Assembly: GCF_018035235.1 (NCBI RefSeq) | Contig: NZ_WPCV01000004.1 | Coordinates: 124,001-188,000, forward strand | Length of the DNA: 64,000 nt | Source: Citrobacter sp. On2M | GTDB lineage: Bacteria; Pseudomonadota; Gammaproteobacteria; Enterobacterales; Enterobacteriaceae | Reading direction: 5' to 3' | In this document: one piece after another, positions 9,246 through 46,291 of the stretch | Layout: every line of letters begins with the position of its first letter | Numbering within the stretch: the stretch's first letter is position 1 | Program-made: the position numbers and the translations under genes | Notes under the pieces: generated by a model | What the model saw: only the letters and a program-made list of their open reading frames with translations | The model's database searches: none | What the model was told of the DNA's origin: nothing

Positions 9246-9258
9246 AAATCTACTCCAG

Positions 9259-9421
9259 AAAAAAAAGGGTAGCAGCGCTACCCTCGAAGATTGTTATTCG
9301 GCGTTTTGCGGTTTTCAGGCCTGATGGGGAACGACCATCAGGCTTATAGTCTGTCCGTACCGAATAGCAATCGAGAGGGAGGGGAAGCCTCCCATTTATT
9401 TTAGTTAGTTAAGCGCTTTAT
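9259..9421 (-). ncRNA. sroC: SroC small RNA (3' fragment of gltI message)
   Basis: The gltI-gltJ gap holds a perfect hairpin (GGGTAGC GCT GCTACCC on the minus strand, 9267-9283) followed by eight U residues (9259-9266), a full rho-independent terminator inside the operon. In E. coli and Salmonella this is the 3' end of SroC, a ~160-nt RNA cut from gltI mRNA that acts as a sponge for the sRNA GcvB. A second hairpin (CAGGCCTGAT / ATCAGGCTT, about 9316-9344) lies in its middle. The 5' end is placed by analogy at ~160 nt from the terminator and so overlaps the gltI stop; only the 3' end is read directly. Confidence 0.8.
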
Positions 9422-17787: not shown

Positions 17788-17862
17788 TGGCTGGGGTACG
17801 AGGATTCGAACCTCGGAATGCTGGTATCAGAAACCAGAGCCTTACCGCTTGGCGATACCCCA
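17788..17862 (-). tRNA. glnX: tRNA-Gln (CUG), glnX position
   Basis: A 75-nt tRNA with encoded CCA and anticodon CTG, the last gene of the operon. Its anticodon stem (CTGGT / ACCAG) differs from the other CUG copy (CCGGA / TCCGG) by two paired changes plus a change at position 26, while the acceptor, D and T arms are identical. The pairing is kept, so the tRNA should fold normally. Confidence 0.97.
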
Positions 17863-17898
17863 ACGGGCGCATCCACAAAATGGACGACTTGTTAAAAT

Positions 17899-17973
17899 TG
17901 GCTGGGGTACGAGGATTCGAACCTCGGAATGCCGGAATCAGAATCCGGTGCCTTACCGCTTGGCGATACCCCA
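17899..17973 (-). tRNA. glnV: tRNA-Gln (CUG), glnV position
   Basis: A 75-nt tRNA with encoded CCA and anticodon CTG. Its sequence fits the standard enteric glnV/glnX form with the CCGGA / TCCGG anticodon stem. Confidence 0.98.
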
Positions 17974-18016
17974 ACAATTTTTTGACTTTATCGAGCGAGT
18001 CGACAGGCCTTTAATA

Positions 18017-18093
18017 TGGTGGCTACGACGGGATTCGAACCTGTGACCCCATCATTATGAGTGATGTGCTCTAACCAGCTGAGCTACGTAGCC
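18017..18093 (-). tRNA. metU: tRNA-Met (elongator, CAU)
   Basis: A 77-nt elongator tRNA-Met with encoded CCA and anticodon CAT (loop CTCATAA). It is identical to the metT copy at 18417-18493. The acceptor stem starts with the paired GGCTACG, unlike initiator tRNA. Confidence 0.98.
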
Positions 18094-18113
18094 ATATACT
18101 ACTTAATCTTCGA

Positions 18114-18188
18114 TGGCTGGGGTACCTGGATTCGAACCAGGGAATGCCGGTATCAAAAACCGGTGCCTTACCGCTTGGCGATACCCCA
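18114..18188 (-). tRNA. glnW: tRNA-Gln (UUG)
   Basis: A 75-nt tRNA with encoded CCA and anticodon TTG (stem CCGGT / ACCGG). It is identical to glnU at 18226-18300. Confidence 0.98.
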
Positions 18189-18225
18189 AAGACCGTTGCG
18201 GTGAACCGCTATATCGAAGAAAAAA

Positions 18226-18300
18226 TGGCTGGGGTACCTGGATTCGAACCAGGGAATGCCGGTATCAAAAACCGGTGCCTTACCGCTTGGCGATACCCCA
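18226..18300 (-). tRNA. glnU: tRNA-Gln (UUG)
   Basis: A 75-nt tRNA with encoded CCA and anticodon TTG; a duplicate of glnW. The four Gln tRNA genes here probably supply most or all glutamine tRNA of the cell. Confidence 0.98.
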
Positions 18301-18323
18301 TCCGTGCAACGCTTACGGGTGAA

Positions 18324-18408
18324 TGGTGCGGGAGGCGAGACTTGAACTCGCACACCTTGCGGCGCCAGAACCTAAATCTGGTGCGTCTACCAATTTCGCC
18401 ACTCCCGC
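18324..18408 (-). tRNA. leuW: tRNA-Leu (UAG)
   Basis: An 85-nt class II tRNA with a long variable arm and encoded CCA. The anticodon is TAG, which reads CUN leucine codons. Confidence 0.98.
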
Positions 18409-18416
18409 AAAAAAGA

Positions 18417-18493
18417 TGGTGGCTACGACGGGATTCGAACCTGTGACCCCATCATTATGAGTGATGTGCTCTAACCAGCTGAGCTACGTAGCC
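18417..18493 (-). tRNA. metT: tRNA-Met (elongator, CAU)
   Basis: A 77-nt elongator tRNA-Met, the first gene of the seven-tRNA operon, identical to metU. It lies 40 bp after the promoter -10 box. Confidence 0.98.
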
Positions 18494-21433: not shown

Positions 21434-21563
21434 CGACATCATTCGAGTTGCATCAAGGCGGCAAGTCTGCGAAACCCCGGAGCTTACTGAAGTAAGTGAC
21501 CGGGCTGAGCAGATGCAGCTAACGCAGATGCAGCTAACGCAGAGGCAGCTTGAAGGATGACAT
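21434..21563. repeat. ERIC element between nagC and nagD
   Basis: This ~130-bp imperfect palindrome has the ERIC core (GGAGCTTACTGAAGTAAGTG then a CGGGCTGAGC run) with outer arms TTCGAGTTGC and GCAGCTTGAA. One arm is expanded by a 15-bp direct repeat (AGATGCAGCTAACGC, 21511-21525 and 21526-21540, then a partial third copy). It lies inside the nagBACD operon, is transcribed, and should form a long hairpin in the mRNA between nagC and nagD. Confidence 0.9.
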
Positions 21564-41336: not shown

Positions 41337-42656
41337 TTAACTATGTTTATTTTTCAGTTCAAAACGCGGTGAGACCAGGCCATACAGCGTCCAGCCGAGG
41401 AAAGTCACGATAGAACCATACAGCATTGCTTCTTCGCCAGAGGAGTAGAGTGCATAGAAGCTGTATAATGCGCCAATAAACGCGACAAAGTTTGCTGGTT
41501 TCGCTTTTGACGATGGGACATTCGCCATCTTCTGAATAATAACCAGTGCGGCCATCGACAAGATATACGGGATGATATTCGTCACGACAGCCAGGTTGAC
41601 CAGCACGTTGAACTGGCTGTTCAGCGACGGGCTGATGGTCATCAGCGATAAGCCACTCTGGATTATTACGATGGTCAGCATTCCCTGAACTGGCGCATCC
41701 ACTTTAGTTACACGGGAGAAGATTTTCGGGAAGTAACCTTCATCAGCCGACGATTTAAAGACCTGAGCGATAGTAAACTGCCAGCCCAGCAGTGAACCAC
41801 AGCAGGACATTACCATCAACGCCATGATCACTTTACCGACTTCCGGGGTGAACATCTGCGCAAAGGCCAAACCGAAAGGCGCAGTGGAGTTAGCCAGATC
41901 CATATTTGGCACAATCCCGGCGATCACATTGGTCGAAATGATGTAAATCACTGCCGCGCCCAACGTACCGCCCAGTACAGCGATGGGTACGTTGCGCTCC
42001 GGATTTTCAACCACTTCGGCGTTAGCGCAGGCCGATTCCAGACCGAGAAAAGCCCACAGGGTCATCGCAATCGAAGAACCGACTGCCGTGAAGAACGGGA
42101 CGTGGTGTGGGTTCCAGGAGTTAGCGTACAGCGTCGGACTGAACCAGAACCAGCCGATGATGCACAAACCGACAACCGGAATAATAACGCCCCAGACGGT
42201 GATACTGCTGAGCTGCCCAGTAATACGTGCCCCGCCAAAGTTAGCGACGGTGCAGATCCACAGCACGCCGATAGTGGCCAGGCCAATCTGCACGGGTGTC
42301 AATGTGGCACCAAACAGTTCGGTACCGTAGCCCACGGCGGAGATAGCGATAGCCACGTTGGCAATTAACAGCGAAACGCCATAGGTGTAGTTCGCCATAA
42401 AGTTACCGGATTTGCCAAAGGCATATTCAGCATAACCGCCCATACCACCGGATTTACGACTGAACATACCGCATTTTGCGAAGGCCCACGCCAGTGCCAT
42501 TGAACCGACAGCGGTCACCAGCCACGAGATGATCGAAATGGTGCCGACTTCTGCAAGTTTGGTAGGCAACATGATGATCCCTGAGCCCATCATATTGACC
42601 ATGGTCAGGATGGTGAGCTGGACGACACCCATTTTGTTGGATTTGGCTTTGCTCAT
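41337..42656 (-). CDS. potE: Putrescine-ornithine antiporter PotE
   Basis: PotE exchanges external ornithine for internal putrescine; with SpeF it gives acid resistance and polyamine supply. The 439-residue protein belongs to the amino acid-polyamine-organocation family with twelve predicted helices and the early motif MVNMMGSGIIMLPTKLAEVG that carries the helix-1 substrate turn. It overlaps speF by 4 bp, so the two are translationally coupled. Confidence 0.97.
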   Translation of the reverse strand: MSKAKSNKMGVVQLTILTMVNMMGSGIIMLPTKLAEVGTISIISWLVTAVGSMALAWAFAKCGMFSRKSGGMGGYAEYAFGKSGNFMANYTYGVSLLIANVAIAISAVGYGTELFGATLTPVQIGLATIGVLWICTVANFGGARITGQLSSITVWGVIIPVVGLCIIGWFWFSPTLYANSWNPHHVPFFTAVGSSIAMTLWAFLGLESACANAEVVENPERNVPIAVLGGTLGAAVIYIISTNVIAGIVPNMDLANSTAPFGLAFAQMFTPEVGKVIMALMVMSCCGSLLGWQFTIAQVFKSSADEGYFPKIFSRVTKVDAPVQGMLTIVIIQSGLSLMTISPSLNSQFNVLVNLAVVTNIIPYILSMAALVIIQKMANVPSSKAKPANFVAFIGALYSFYALYSSGEEAMLYGSIVTFLGWTLYGLVSPRFELKNKHS

Positions 42657-44851
42657 AACATTTCCCCTTTCAACAGATCGTCTTGCGCGTCTTTTGGCTT
42701 AATGACATAGCACCACACCTGTTTACGCCCGTCGTGTTCTTCGATGTAGACACCCTGAAGTTCAGGCGCAAAACCCGGCAGCAGATTGATTCCCTCTTCC
42801 AGCGCGCTAAAGTAACGCAATACTGAACCACCCCAGATTTCACCCGGAACCACACACAGCACGCCAGGAGGATAAGGCAACGCACCTTCCGCGGCGATTC
42901 GGCCTTCCGCGTCCGGTAGTCGCACCAACTCAACTTCACCGCGCAGATAGGCGTAGTTGGCCTCCTGGGGATTCATGCTGACGCGCGGGAAATGATCCTT
43001 ACGGAACATCTCTTTCTGAAGCTGTTTCACGTTGTGACGGGCGTACAAATCGTGCATTTCCTGGCACAGCTGACGCAGGGTATAACCGGCATAACGGGCT
43101 TCATGTTGTTTGTAGAGAGAGGGCAGAACCTCAGCCAGCGGGGCATCGGCTTCCAGCAGTTTTTCGAAACGCACCAGCAGGGCGACAAGTTGCTGCATCT
43201 TCGCCATATCTTCTGCCGGGGTCATCAGGAACAGGATGGAGTTAAGGTCGCATTTTTCGGGAACTACGCCATTTTCCCGCAGGAAGTTAGCCAGAATGGT
43301 GGCCGGAACGCCGAACGTGTCATATTCGCCGTTACGCGTTTTGATCCCCGGTGTGGTGAGCAGCAGTTTGCATGGATCCACAAAGTACTGGTGTTCGGCG
43401 TAGCCTTCAAAGGCATGCCAGTGTTCACCAGGAACAAAATGGAAGAAACGTAGATCGCTGGCAATTTCAGCGGTGGAATAAGCCTGCCACGGTTTACCTT
43501 CCACCATCTCAGGCACAAATGGCCGGATATGGTGGCAGTTTTCCAGGATCAATTTACGCGTATCAATTCCGTTGACGACGCAGTCCATCCACATGTTGCG
43601 CCCGCTGACGCCTTCATGCATTTTGGCGTTGATGTCGAGCGCGGCAAAGAGCGGATAGAACGGGCTGGTGGAGGCGTGCATCATGAACGCGTTATTCATT
43701 CGTTTATGGGGCACGTAGCGAGACTGGCCTTTAATATGGCTGTCTTTTTTGTGGATCTGCGATGTCTGGGAGAAACCCGCCTGCTGTTTGTGTACCGACT
43801 GGGTGACCAGAATACCAGGATCGTTTTCATTCAGATCCAGCAACAATGGAGAACAATCGGCCATCATCGGAATGAACTGCTCATAGCCCACCCACGCGGA
43901 GTCAAACAGGATGTAGTCGCACAGGTGACCGATGTTATCCACTACCTGACGCGCGTTATAGATAGTGCCATCGTAGGTACCTAACTGAATCACGGCCAGT
44001 CGGAATGGACGGACATCATTTTTACGTTTTGGCGCGACTTCACCGATCCTTTCTCGCAGATAGCTTTCTTCAAAGCAGTGAGCGTCAATCCCGCCGATAA
44101 AGCCGTACGGGTTGCGTGCAGTCTCCAGATAGACCGGCGTGGCCCCAGCCTGTAATAACGCGCCGTGGTGGTTTGACTTGTGGTTGTTGCGGTCAAACAA
44201 CACCAGATCGCCTGGGGTGAGCAGCGCGTTAAGCACCACTTTGTTTGATGATGAGGTTCCGTTCAGGACAAAGTAGGTCTTATCCGCGTTGAACACTTTG
44301 GCCGCATGCTGTTGGGCGATGCAAGGCGCACCTTCGTGGATCAACAAATCACCCATTGCCACATCGGCATTACACAAATCAGAGCGGAAAAGCGTTTCGC
44401 CGAAGTACTCCACAAACTGATTACCCGCAGGATGGCGACGGAAAAATTCGCCCCCCTGATGACCAGGACAATCAAATGCGCTGTTACCCTGATTGACGTA
44501 ATCGACCAATGCGCGGAAGAATGGGGGACGTAGCTGCGTTTCGTAGTGGCTGGCGGCGGTTTCTAACTGACGACCATAAAATGCTGAGCGGGCTTCATTG
44601 CATTCGAATACGCCGGAGATCCGTGGCAGATACTCTGCTGGAACACGCTCTTCATTTTCGGTGGCGATAAAAACGGGAATGCCGTAGCCGGTGGCGTCAA
44701 TTTCTTCGAGTTTTCCTCGTTCAATATCATTGATGGATAACACGATGGCAGCAACATCAATGAAATTACTTTCATCGATATTTACGCAGGAACGCTGCGT
44801 AGAAAAACAATCAGGACAGGAACGGCTTACGGCAATTTTTAATTCAGACAT
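42653..44851 (-). CDS. speF: Inducible ornithine decarboxylase SpeF
   Basis: SpeF is the PLP-dependent ornithine decarboxylase induced by acid and ornithine, making putrescine. The chosen ATG at 44851 (MSELKIAVSRSCPDC) gives 732 residues as in E. coli; an ATG two codons upstream is also possible. The PLP lysine is K355 in SVHKQQAGFSQTSQ. The N-terminal wing domain has regulatory cysteines (SRSCPDCFSTQRSC). Expression depends on the SpeFL arrest peptide 380 bp upstream. The operon continues to potE. Confidence 0.98.
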   Translation of the reverse strand: MSELKIAVSRSCPDCFSTQRSCVNIDESNFIDVAAIVLSINDIERGKLEEIDATGYGIPVFIATENEERVPAEYLPRISGVFECNEARSAFYGRQLETAASHYETQLRPPFFRALVDYVNQGNSAFDCPGHQGGEFFRRHPAGNQFVEYFGETLFRSDLCNADVAMGDLLIHEGAPCIAQQHAAKVFNADKTYFVLNGTSSSNKVVLNALLTPGDLVLFDRNNHKSNHHGALLQAGATPVYLETARNPYGFIGGIDAHCFEESYLRERIGEVAPKRKNDVRPFRLAVIQLGTYDGTIYNARQVVDNIGHLCDYILFDSAWVGYEQFIPMMADCSPLLLDLNENDPGILVTQSVHKQQAGFSQTSQIHKKDSHIKGQSRYVPHKRMNNAFMMHASTSPFYPLFAALDINAKMHEGVSGRNMWMDCVVNGIDTRKLILENCHHIRPFVPEMVEGKPWQAYSTAEIASDLRFFHFVPGEHWHAFEGYAEHQYFVDPCKLLLTTPGIKTRNGEYDTFGVPATILANFLRENGVVPEKCDLNSILFLMTPAEDMAKMQQLVALLVRFEKLLEADAPLAEVLPSLYKQHEARYAGYTLRQLCQEMHDLYARHNVKQLQKEMFRKDHFPRVSMNPQEANYAYLRGEVELVRLPDAEGRIAAEGALPYPPGVLCVVPGEIWGGSVLRYFSALEEGINLLPGFAPELQGVYIEEHDGRKQVWCYVIKPKDAQDDLLKGEML

Positions 44852-45231
44852 TTTCATCTCTTTATTTTAGGTAATAGCAGGTCCTCAATTTCTCAAATGA
44901 GAAATTGATAACTCCGGAAAAAAAAGCAAAGTAATACCGCTGATAAATAAATCAGTAAATTGCTTTTTTGAAGATGCAATAAACCCTAACCGGTCCGGTC
45001 ACAGGTAATACAGGGTTATGCAGGGAGAGCACTGTGGATACAGGCATTATACCCGTCGTCTTTCAAGCTGCATCTGTGTTGGCTTTACTCGCTTATCCCA
45101 GTCACGTACTGATGTACGCTCCCGGGCTTCGCTGCATCGCCGTCTTGATGCAACTCGAAATCTATTGGGTATATATCTGCGATACAGAGAGTCAGGATGA
45201 CCTGTATACTGGAGTGCCCTTAGTCGGAAGA
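44852..45231 (-). promoter_or_regulatory. speFL-speF leader with ERIC insertion
   Basis: This transcribed leader of about 380 nt lies between the arrest peptide gene and speF. In E. coli, ornithine-bound SpeFL stalls the ribosome and blocks Rho termination in this leader. Here an ERIC element (45048-45175) occupies a third of the leader, while the last 190 nt before speF remain AT-rich. Confidence 0.7.
45048..45175. repeat. ERIC element in the speF leader
   Basis: A 128-bp copy of the ERIC family. The reverse strand shows GAGCGTACATCAGTACGTGA then CTGGGATAAGCGAG, with outer arms TTCGAGTTGCAT and ATGCAGCTTGAA and terminal TATACCC inverted repeats. It is roughly 75% like the copy at 21434-21563 by eye and should fold into a long RNA hairpin. 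Confidence 0.9.
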
Positions 45232-45336
45232 CTAACGGGCATTAAAGAAATGAAAGTCGAAACTATTGCGGTGGGCAAACATCATAATATGCGTTGTTCG
45301 CCTTATATGTGGCATTGTACGGCTATTATTTTCCAT
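45232..45336 (-). CDS. speFL: SpeFL ornithine-sensing leader peptide
   Basis: A 34-codon frame starts at ATG 45336 with AAAGG about nine bases upstream and encodes MENNSRTMPHIRRTTHIM then MFAHRNSFDFHFFNAR. It matches the E. coli SpeFL arrest peptide (also called ORF34) over nearly its full length. In E. coli this peptide binds ornithine in the ribosome exit tunnel, stalls at its 3' end and turns on speF-potE. The C-terminal HRNSFDFHFFNAR arrest segment is intact. Residue 19 is Met here, where I recall Lys in E. coli. Confidence 0.9.
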   Translation of the reverse strand: MENNSRTMPHIRRTTHIMMFAHRNSFDFHFFNAR

Positions 45337-45613
45337 TTTGGTTACCTTTACTGGATAAGTGGAAGGTGTGGGTATTTTATCCAGGAAATGGCTATGAACT
45401 GTGAAGAAGATCAATAAAAAATGATCGTTTCCAAAATATTTAGTCGCCGATTATGCATATCGTGAGATAAGATACTGTTTTGTTGTTTATATGTTATTTA
45501 TTTGTATTTTATTATTTTGAGTATAACCTTATCGGCTGCGTAATAAATATTATGCAGCCTTAAGGATAATAGATAATATATTTGTTATTTAATCAAAATA
45601 AATGAATAAAAAT
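45337..45613 (-). promoter_or_regulatory. speFL promoter region, AT-rich
   Basis: This AT-rich 277-bp gap between kdpE and speFL contains no gene. It must hold the acid- and anaerobiosis-inducible speF promoter. An inverted repeat (GGCTGCGTAATA / TATTATGCAGCC, 45533-45558) lies 60 bp after the kdpE stop and could end or protect the kdp message, but no U-tract follows it. Confidence 0.5.
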
Positions 45614-46291
45614 TCAAGGCATAAACCGATAACCAATTCCGGTCTCGGTCAGAAAATGACGCGGGCGGGCCGGGTCCAGTTCCAGCTTCTGGCGCAAGTG
45701 TCCCATATAAATGCGCAGATAGTGACTGTGTTCGACGGCGTTTGGTCCCCAAACCTGATTCAATAACTGACGTTGCGTCAGTACCTTCCCGGCATTATTC
45801 AGCAGTACCGCCAACAGGCGAAACTCAATCGGCGTCAAGTGAATTTCTTCATCACCTCGGTGTACGAGGCGAGCAGCGATATCCACTTTAACATTAGAAA
45901 AATGTACGACCGGTTCGGGAGACGTCCCACTGGCGTGGCGACGCAATGCCACGCGCAATCGCGCCTGTAGCTCGCCAATACCAAAAGGTTTGCTGAGATA
46001 GTCATCGGCTCCGGCATCCAGCGCGGCGATTTTATCGCTTTCCTCACTGCGGGCTGAAAGCACAATCACTGGAATCGCGCTCCATTGACGCAGGTCGCGA
46101 ATAAAATCAATGCCGTCGCCATCCGGCAGGCCAAGATCGAGAATGATGAGATCGGGTTTTCGCGTGGCGGCTTCCAGCAGACCGCGTTGCAGCGTTTCCG
46201 CTTCAAATACACGTAGGCCATCGGCCTCCAGCGCGGTGCGCAGAAAGCGGCGAATGGCCTGTTCATCTTCAACAATCAGTACGTTCGTCAC
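45614..46291 (-). CDS. kdpE: Response regulator KdpE
   Basis: KdpE is the OmpR-type response regulator that activates kdpFABC when phosphorylated by KdpD. The 225-residue product has the receiver domain with acidic pocket (VEDEQA) and phospho-acceptor D52 in LIILDLGLPDGDG, a conserved LSARSEESDKI, and a C-terminal winged-helix domain (MGHLRQKLELDPARPRHFLTE). Its start overlaps the kdpD stop by 4 bp. Confidence 0.98.
   Translation of the reverse strand: MTNVLIVEDEQAIRRFLRTALEADGLRVFEAETLQRGLLEAATRKPDLIILDLGLPDGDGIDFIRDLRQWSAIPVIVLSARSEESDKIAALDAGADDYLSKPFGIGELQARLRVALRRHASGTSPEPVVHFSNVKVDIAARLVHRGDEEIHLTPIEFRLLAVLLNNAGKVLTQRQLLNQVWGPNAVEHSHYLRIYMGHLRQKLELDPARPRHFLTETGIGYRFMP

Follow-up and report, generated by a model that had tools for sequence, protein, structure and literature searches.

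The closest described counterparts of the locus analyzed here are the speFL-speF leaders of Escherichia coli and Salmonella, in the latter of which speFL goes by the name orf34, together with the repeat element ERIC. SpeFL is also the subject of the work of Herrero del Valle and colleagues from 2020. The S. Typhimurium orf34 begins at +32 and contains the proposed rut site (nt 112–124), with the Rho-dependent 3′ end mapped at +157; mutations have shown the importance of a duplex that pairs the last part of speFL with the speF ribosome site, and nt 175–449 of the leader constitute a ring that is cut by RNase G (PMC6386406). ERIC, also termed IRU or RU-1, is a 127-bp enterobacterial MITE found in many intergenic copies, with TA-flanked terminal repeats and a palindromic RNA hairpin. 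TA ends and target duplication are given as typical of it in the excerpted text of PMC2229807, and in Yersinia an orientation-dependent effect of RNase E on mRNA decay is described for cases in which ribosomes enter the element (De Gregorio et al., 2005, as relayed in excerpts of PMC2229807 and PMC10969869). ERIC is nowhere mentioned in PMC6386406, and we found no paper on ERIC in a speF leader in the open-licence literature, which is not proof of its being unpublished.

An ERIC element between speFL and speF

The window, a stretch of 64,000 nucleotides from Citrobacter sp. On2M, carries on its minus strand, in this order, kdpE (named by its place and by annotated E. coli records), speFL, a 374-nt leader (measured between the stop codon of speFL and the first ATG of speF), speF, and potE:

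45232–45336, minus strand: speFL, 34-codon leader peptide gene (open reading frame and translation; Pfam PF10940, 27.5 bits against a cut-off of 25)
45047–45174, minus strand: ERIC, full length, sense relative to speF, with TA at both flanks (profile, covariance model, and fold)
42653–44857, minus strand: speF, inducible ornithine decarboxylase (uninterrupted 734-aa frame; Pfam OKR_DC_1, 650.7 bits)
41337–42656, minus strand: potE, putrescine/ornithine antiporter (uninterrupted 439-aa frame; Pfam AA_permease_2, 160.9 bits)

Over its full length, SpeF matches the decarboxylase family of Pfam, as PotE does the permease family; for the second, which we take to be PotE from its position and length, Pfam itself indicates only an amino acid permease. 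The speFL reading frame is intact, as the first-pass annotation had said of the arrest peptide, and it combines the PF10940 core with a position ahead of speF. Judged by sequence, SpeFL would be the counterpart of the ornithine-sensing arrest peptide of E. coli, with putative arrest and Rho control. Elsewhere in the window, the minus strand also encodes the sroC small RNA (9250–9409) and a run of seven tRNA genes (17791–18493).

With a profile made from 21 ERIC copies that Citrobacter carries elsewhere than in this leader, positions 45047–45174 score 125 bits over profile positions 2–128, the best of 8,700 dinucleotide-shuffled leaders used as decoys reaching 8.8 bits, and our covariance model R1 recovers the same segment as a full-length match of 140.2 bits. 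The element is 128 nt long and begins 57 nt past the speFL stop, where the first-pass annotation had placed it. Its termini read TA-TACCC...GGGTA-TA where C. braakii has a single TA, so that both the terminal inverted repeats and the TA duplication are present. The same genome yields 60 ERIC matches with the covariance model and 19 with blastn, the leader copy included. The leader element is thus an ordinary ERIC, a non-autonomous MITE that differs in nothing from other members of its class; what is notable is its place, unusual but tolerated, in a leader under leader-peptide control. A scan of 44800–45620 recovered no sigma-70 promoter within the ERIC, its one site, fewer than in shuffled sequences, being on the plus strand outside the element; a terminator-like site occurs on the minus strand at the conserved segment P3 (45001–44987; 1 vs 0.4 in shuffles). 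The 3′ junction of the ERIC creates an ATG that opens a 31-codon reading frame within the leader (44952–45047, minus strand), ahead of which we saw no clear ribosome site.

Two further ERICs of this genome may be recorded here. One is a partial match (77% identity) within the window at about 21442–21535 (G000:C5:145442–145535). The other lies in pheM-pheS, which is likewise controlled by a leader peptide (L172, G000:C5:783252–787380); at 2002–2127 of that locus, it follows directly on the U-tract that closes the pheM attenuator and stops 42 nt short of pheS.

The nearest named relative at the leader, C. braakii ATCC 51113, is ERIC-free: its leader measures 250 nt and is 97–98% identical to ours on either side of the ERIC site. 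The empty site, GCAGGC-TAAC-GCCTGT, folds into a hairpin of six base pairs, which we call P2 and whose loop holds the TA. Two further Citrobacter genomes also have the site without ERIC, and 13 of 17 Citrobacter genomes gave no match to the speFL leader. In the window, P2 is represented by:

45041–45045, minus strand: 3′ arm (GCCTG) of P2, the small hairpin whose loop took the ERIC (fold of the C. braakii empty site)

The 5′ arm (45177–45180 and adjoining bases) is altered in this genome, and P2 no longer forms as it does in C. braakii. The element would have inserted into the TA of that loop, in a small and non-essential hairpin, probably after the split from C. braakii.

Predicted fold and ornithine control of the filled leader

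The following features of the leader RNA bear on how the insertion might act:

45244–45255, minus strand: strand of a predicted long-range duplex, inside speFL and complementary to the speF ribosome-binding region (pair probabilities 0.65–1.0, equal with and without the ERIC)
44852–44863, minus strand: speF ribosome-binding region, partner of the speFL duplex strand (fold)
45182–45207, minus strand: match to the Salmonella ‘downstream of stop’ (DS) hairpin (alignment and PMC6386406, section 12)
44981–45018, minus strand: P3, conserved leader segment (alignment of 77 leaders)
44920–44969, minus strand: P4, conserved hairpin, AAAAGCAA...TTGCTTTT (alignment; pair probabilities 0.90–1.0 with and without the ERIC)
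44887–44908, minus strand: P5, conserved hairpin, CAATTTCTC...GAGAAATTG, just upstream of the speF ribosome site (alignment; probabilities 1.0 with and without the ERIC)

The locus thereby shares with the leaders of E. coli and Salmonella the SpeFL peptide, the anti-ribosome-site duplex, a DS-like sequence, P4, P5, and the speF-potE order (PMC6386406), and differs from them in the 128-nt ERIC at leader position 58 and the broken P2. When the full-length RNA is folded, the DS-like hairpin occurs only as a minor conformer, with a probability of about 0.09.

Folded alone, the ERIC reaches −59.2 kcal/mol (z −9.6), with shuffled versions at −26.6 ± 3.4 and 0/200 of them as good; the leader is predicted at −171.4 with the element and −111.3 without it. 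In the lowest-energy fold of the 541-nt start of the transcript, 41 pairs lie inside the ERIC and none connects it to the rest. When the element is removed in silico, the other 125 pairs are unchanged and the probabilities of the anti-ribosome-site duplex stay equal. These are single-sequence predictions for the full-length RNA, which leave co-transcriptional folding aside. Because the ERIC folds as its own closed hairpin and the other predicted pairs are unchanged, ornithine control would be expected to work as in ERIC-free relatives.

We favor, as the probable reading, that an ordinary ERIC occupies a TA site within the loop of a non-essential leader hairpin, with the control parts outside it and ornithine control expected to be unchanged. 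SpeFL sensing, the C-rich proposed Rho loading stretch, the anti-ribosome-site duplex, P4, and P5 would all operate outside the ERIC. The element would add 128 nt as a closed hairpin without altering other predicted pairs and would be nearly neutral, with at most a slight change in mRNA stability or timing; the linker that joins speFL to the conserved 3′ half would be a stretch in which inserts are tolerated.

The mapped elements of the Salmonella leader speak to the same point. If the same transcription start is assumed, the ERIC begins at about +194 in S. Typhimurium numbering; since this is downstream of the proposed rut site and of the mapped 3′ end alike, the proposed Rho loading region is untouched. 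In 78-nt windows, C exceeds G from about nt 21 to 248, and the zone around the speFL stop is again upstream of the ERIC, which itself has 36 G to 27 C. The first-pass annotation had suggested that the ERIC could hide Rho loading sites, an idea that these positions do not support; its companion view, that control is probably kept, agrees with the intact speFL and with the unchanged 125 non-ERIC pairs of the computed fold. Should Rho termination occur further downstream in other species, the ERIC hairpin could matter there.

The alternative, already put forward in the first-pass annotation, is that the ERIC tunes control: its hairpin might impede Rho, RNase III or RNase E might act on it, or the additional 128 nt might alter coupling, so that speF output shifts and ornithine sensing is kept. 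The great stability of the hairpin would suit such a role, as would the excess of G over C by which it interrupts the C-rich stretch around the speFL stop. The orientation-dependent decay effect in Yersinia, as the excerpted accounts give it, also concerns an ERIC transcribed within an mRNA, where orientation is possibly relevant; in those accounts, however, ribosomes enter the ERIC at the end of a gene, whereas here the element is untranslated and speFL translation ends 57 nt before it. In Salmonella, the leader lacking nt 170–313 gives a stabilized RNA, a change in mRNA stability that also counts against a neutral reading. Yet the mapped 3′ end and proposed rut site lie upstream of the ERIC position, the computed pairs outside the element are unchanged, and relatives with and without it coexist. 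Two other inserts, moreover, do not follow the rule of G over C: the copy in Pluralibacter has 33 C to 30 G, and the insert in Salmonella 30 C to 23 G. On balance, we regard tuning as unlikely. The same two base counts weaken the separate idea that Rho filters the orientation of ERICs through their excess of G over C.

Recurrence of ERIC in other speF leaders

We collected leaders from 67 named loci, which gave 64 (L103, L104, and L106 gave none), and from 45 further SpeFL loci, which gave 31; the 77-leader alignment omits 11, namely nine distant ones and two near-duplicates from E. coli. Of the 87 distinct leaders, 10 contain a clear ERIC (at least 49.5 bits), which occupies one of three positions and is always in the sense orientation; the figure is not a prevalence, because six E. 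coli leaders were picked by hand, four of them for their length. Five of these clear cases fall among the 64 named leaders. The P2 loop is filled in this Citrobacter and in C. amalonaticus, the linker before P2 in two Kluyvera leaders and one Pluralibacter, and the P3 segment or its homologue in Kluyvera ascorbata and four E. coli leaders; none of the 87 has an ERIC in P4, P5, or the ribosome site. If sites shared within a genus are counted once, we infer six insertions, and several Enterobacteriaceae would have filled the linker independently. The first-pass annotation, which took the insertion for a peculiarity of this genome, is corrected in this respect.

Within Kluyvera, nine leaders were recovered, of which three have a full ERIC, one a footprint (a 14-nt terminal piece recognized by eye), and five none; presence and absence of the element are hence both tolerated. 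In two Kluyvera leaders (L066 and L157), almost the whole interior of the ERIC is deleted, so that only its two ends persist, meeting as CATACCCTAGGGTATAA in a tiny hairpin. Searches with the Citrobacter query retrieved 17 of 5,426 genomes at more than 80% coverage. In E. coli, 2,141 records reach 80% coverage. The full element is present in 31 records among the best-ranked matches listed, and the matches listed below these first 31 (19 in one listing, 30 in another) span 326–327 nt, the shortened form. From the coverage counts and these listed spans, about 2,100 E. coli would carry a shortened remnant. The 19 lower-ranked E. coli records listed have their best match in an ERIC located elsewhere; a K-12 type leader (DH1) has no ERIC. 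One E. coli leader (L038) has a shortened and a full ERIC in tandem at about 103–280, another (L041) the full one only, and most of this leader type only the shortened one. Kluyvera and E. coli thus offer a natural series in which the same arrest-peptide leader is empty, filled by ERIC, or left with a shortened remnant, and the behavior of a MITE hairpin inside a Rho-controlled leader can therefore be asked about directly, in an easy test.

Whether such recurrence makes the leader a true ERIC hotspot, through a favored hairpin-loop TA target or a favored orientation, was assessed against density and control regions. At uniform intergenic density (24 other genomes with SpeFL, holding 817 ERICs in all, and 10, 12, or 15% of the DNA assumed to be intergenic), 0.28–0.42 filled speF leaders are expected and three are seen (P 0.002–0.0075; 22 of the 24 genomes gave a leader, G043 and G210 not). 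This excess, at first sight in favor of a hotspot and counting against a neutral reading, is weakened by four control regions, chosen because each also carries an ERIC in the window genome: 12 of 96 other loci have an ERIC (pheS 2, sucA 8, gltP 0, metK 2), about the rate of speF (3 of 22 recovered, 24 searched). The control comparison is rough, because a single old insertion may account for several of the sucA cases: the matches there are mostly partial (14–54 bits), with one full copy at 92.5. Each control set has 24 loci, that of gltP being 23 genomes plus a second copy in G089, with gene ends guessed from open reading frames. That this Citrobacter and C. amalonaticus, and perhaps Salmonella, have the same P2 loop filled, the first two by copies that are not each other's nearest, would fit a preferred target, as would the single orientation throughout; pheS, too, has all three of its copies in one orientation. 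A hotspot is in our judgment improbable. With controls at a similar rate, recurrence seems a property of permissive intergenic regions in general, and the speF leader appears to be one such region and not a proven hotspot.

The orientation bias itself also stands against a neutral reading: each of the six insertions that we infer reads in the sense direction (two-sided p about 0.03, by hand), whereas 25 ERICs located between tandem genes, drawn from 38 top-scoring copies in four genomes with gene calls by reading-frame length, divide into 12 sense and 13 antisense. It could mean selection, and we treat it as a hint.

That the ERICs of this Citrobacter and C. amalonaticus derive from a single ancestral insertion, lost in C. 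braakii and others, is quite unlikely: they share the loop and the ERIC subfamily and are about 89–90% identical, but the flanks are 97–98% identical to those of C. braakii with its clean loop, clean losses would be required several times, and each copy is closer to an ERIC elsewhere in another Citrobacter genome.

Inserts of other long leaders

The seven Salmonella leaders that we examined are all 378–379 nt long, with a 126-nt insert in the P2 loop, which places it within the RNase G-sensitive ring. The ERIC profile gives this insert −0.1 to 0.4 bits in the four of seven leaders that yield a match with nhmmer, below the decoy maximum of 8.8, and end-to-end alignment with ERIC gives z-scores of 3.5–5.2 forward and −0.5 to 2.1 reverse, which are only suggestive. 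With a profile score short of significance and a weak alignment, we set aside its assignment as an ERIC and keep it as a lead only. The deletion of nt 170–313 that makes the RNA more stable removes most of the insert and part of the DS hairpin (PMC6386406). One might speculate that the speFL-speF linker is a repeated landing place where ERIC inserts become regulatory parts, the Salmonella insert being an ancient, decayed ERIC that provides much of the 5′ half of the RNase G-sensitive ring, and the younger copies of Citrobacter, Kluyvera, Pluralibacter, and E. coli, in their one orientation, representing earlier stages; we rate this as very unlikely. Were the insert an old ERIC, it would be the sole case of such an insert with a measured effect, and a published mRNA-decay element would gain a mobile-element origin.

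Two more genera have long leaders with inserts that the ERIC profile does not recognize. In Atlantibacter (L092), the leader has 375 nt and its alignment with ERIC gives z of about 2; in Intestinirhabdus (L058), it has 357 nt, with a profile score of 4.4 bits and alignment z up to 6.8.
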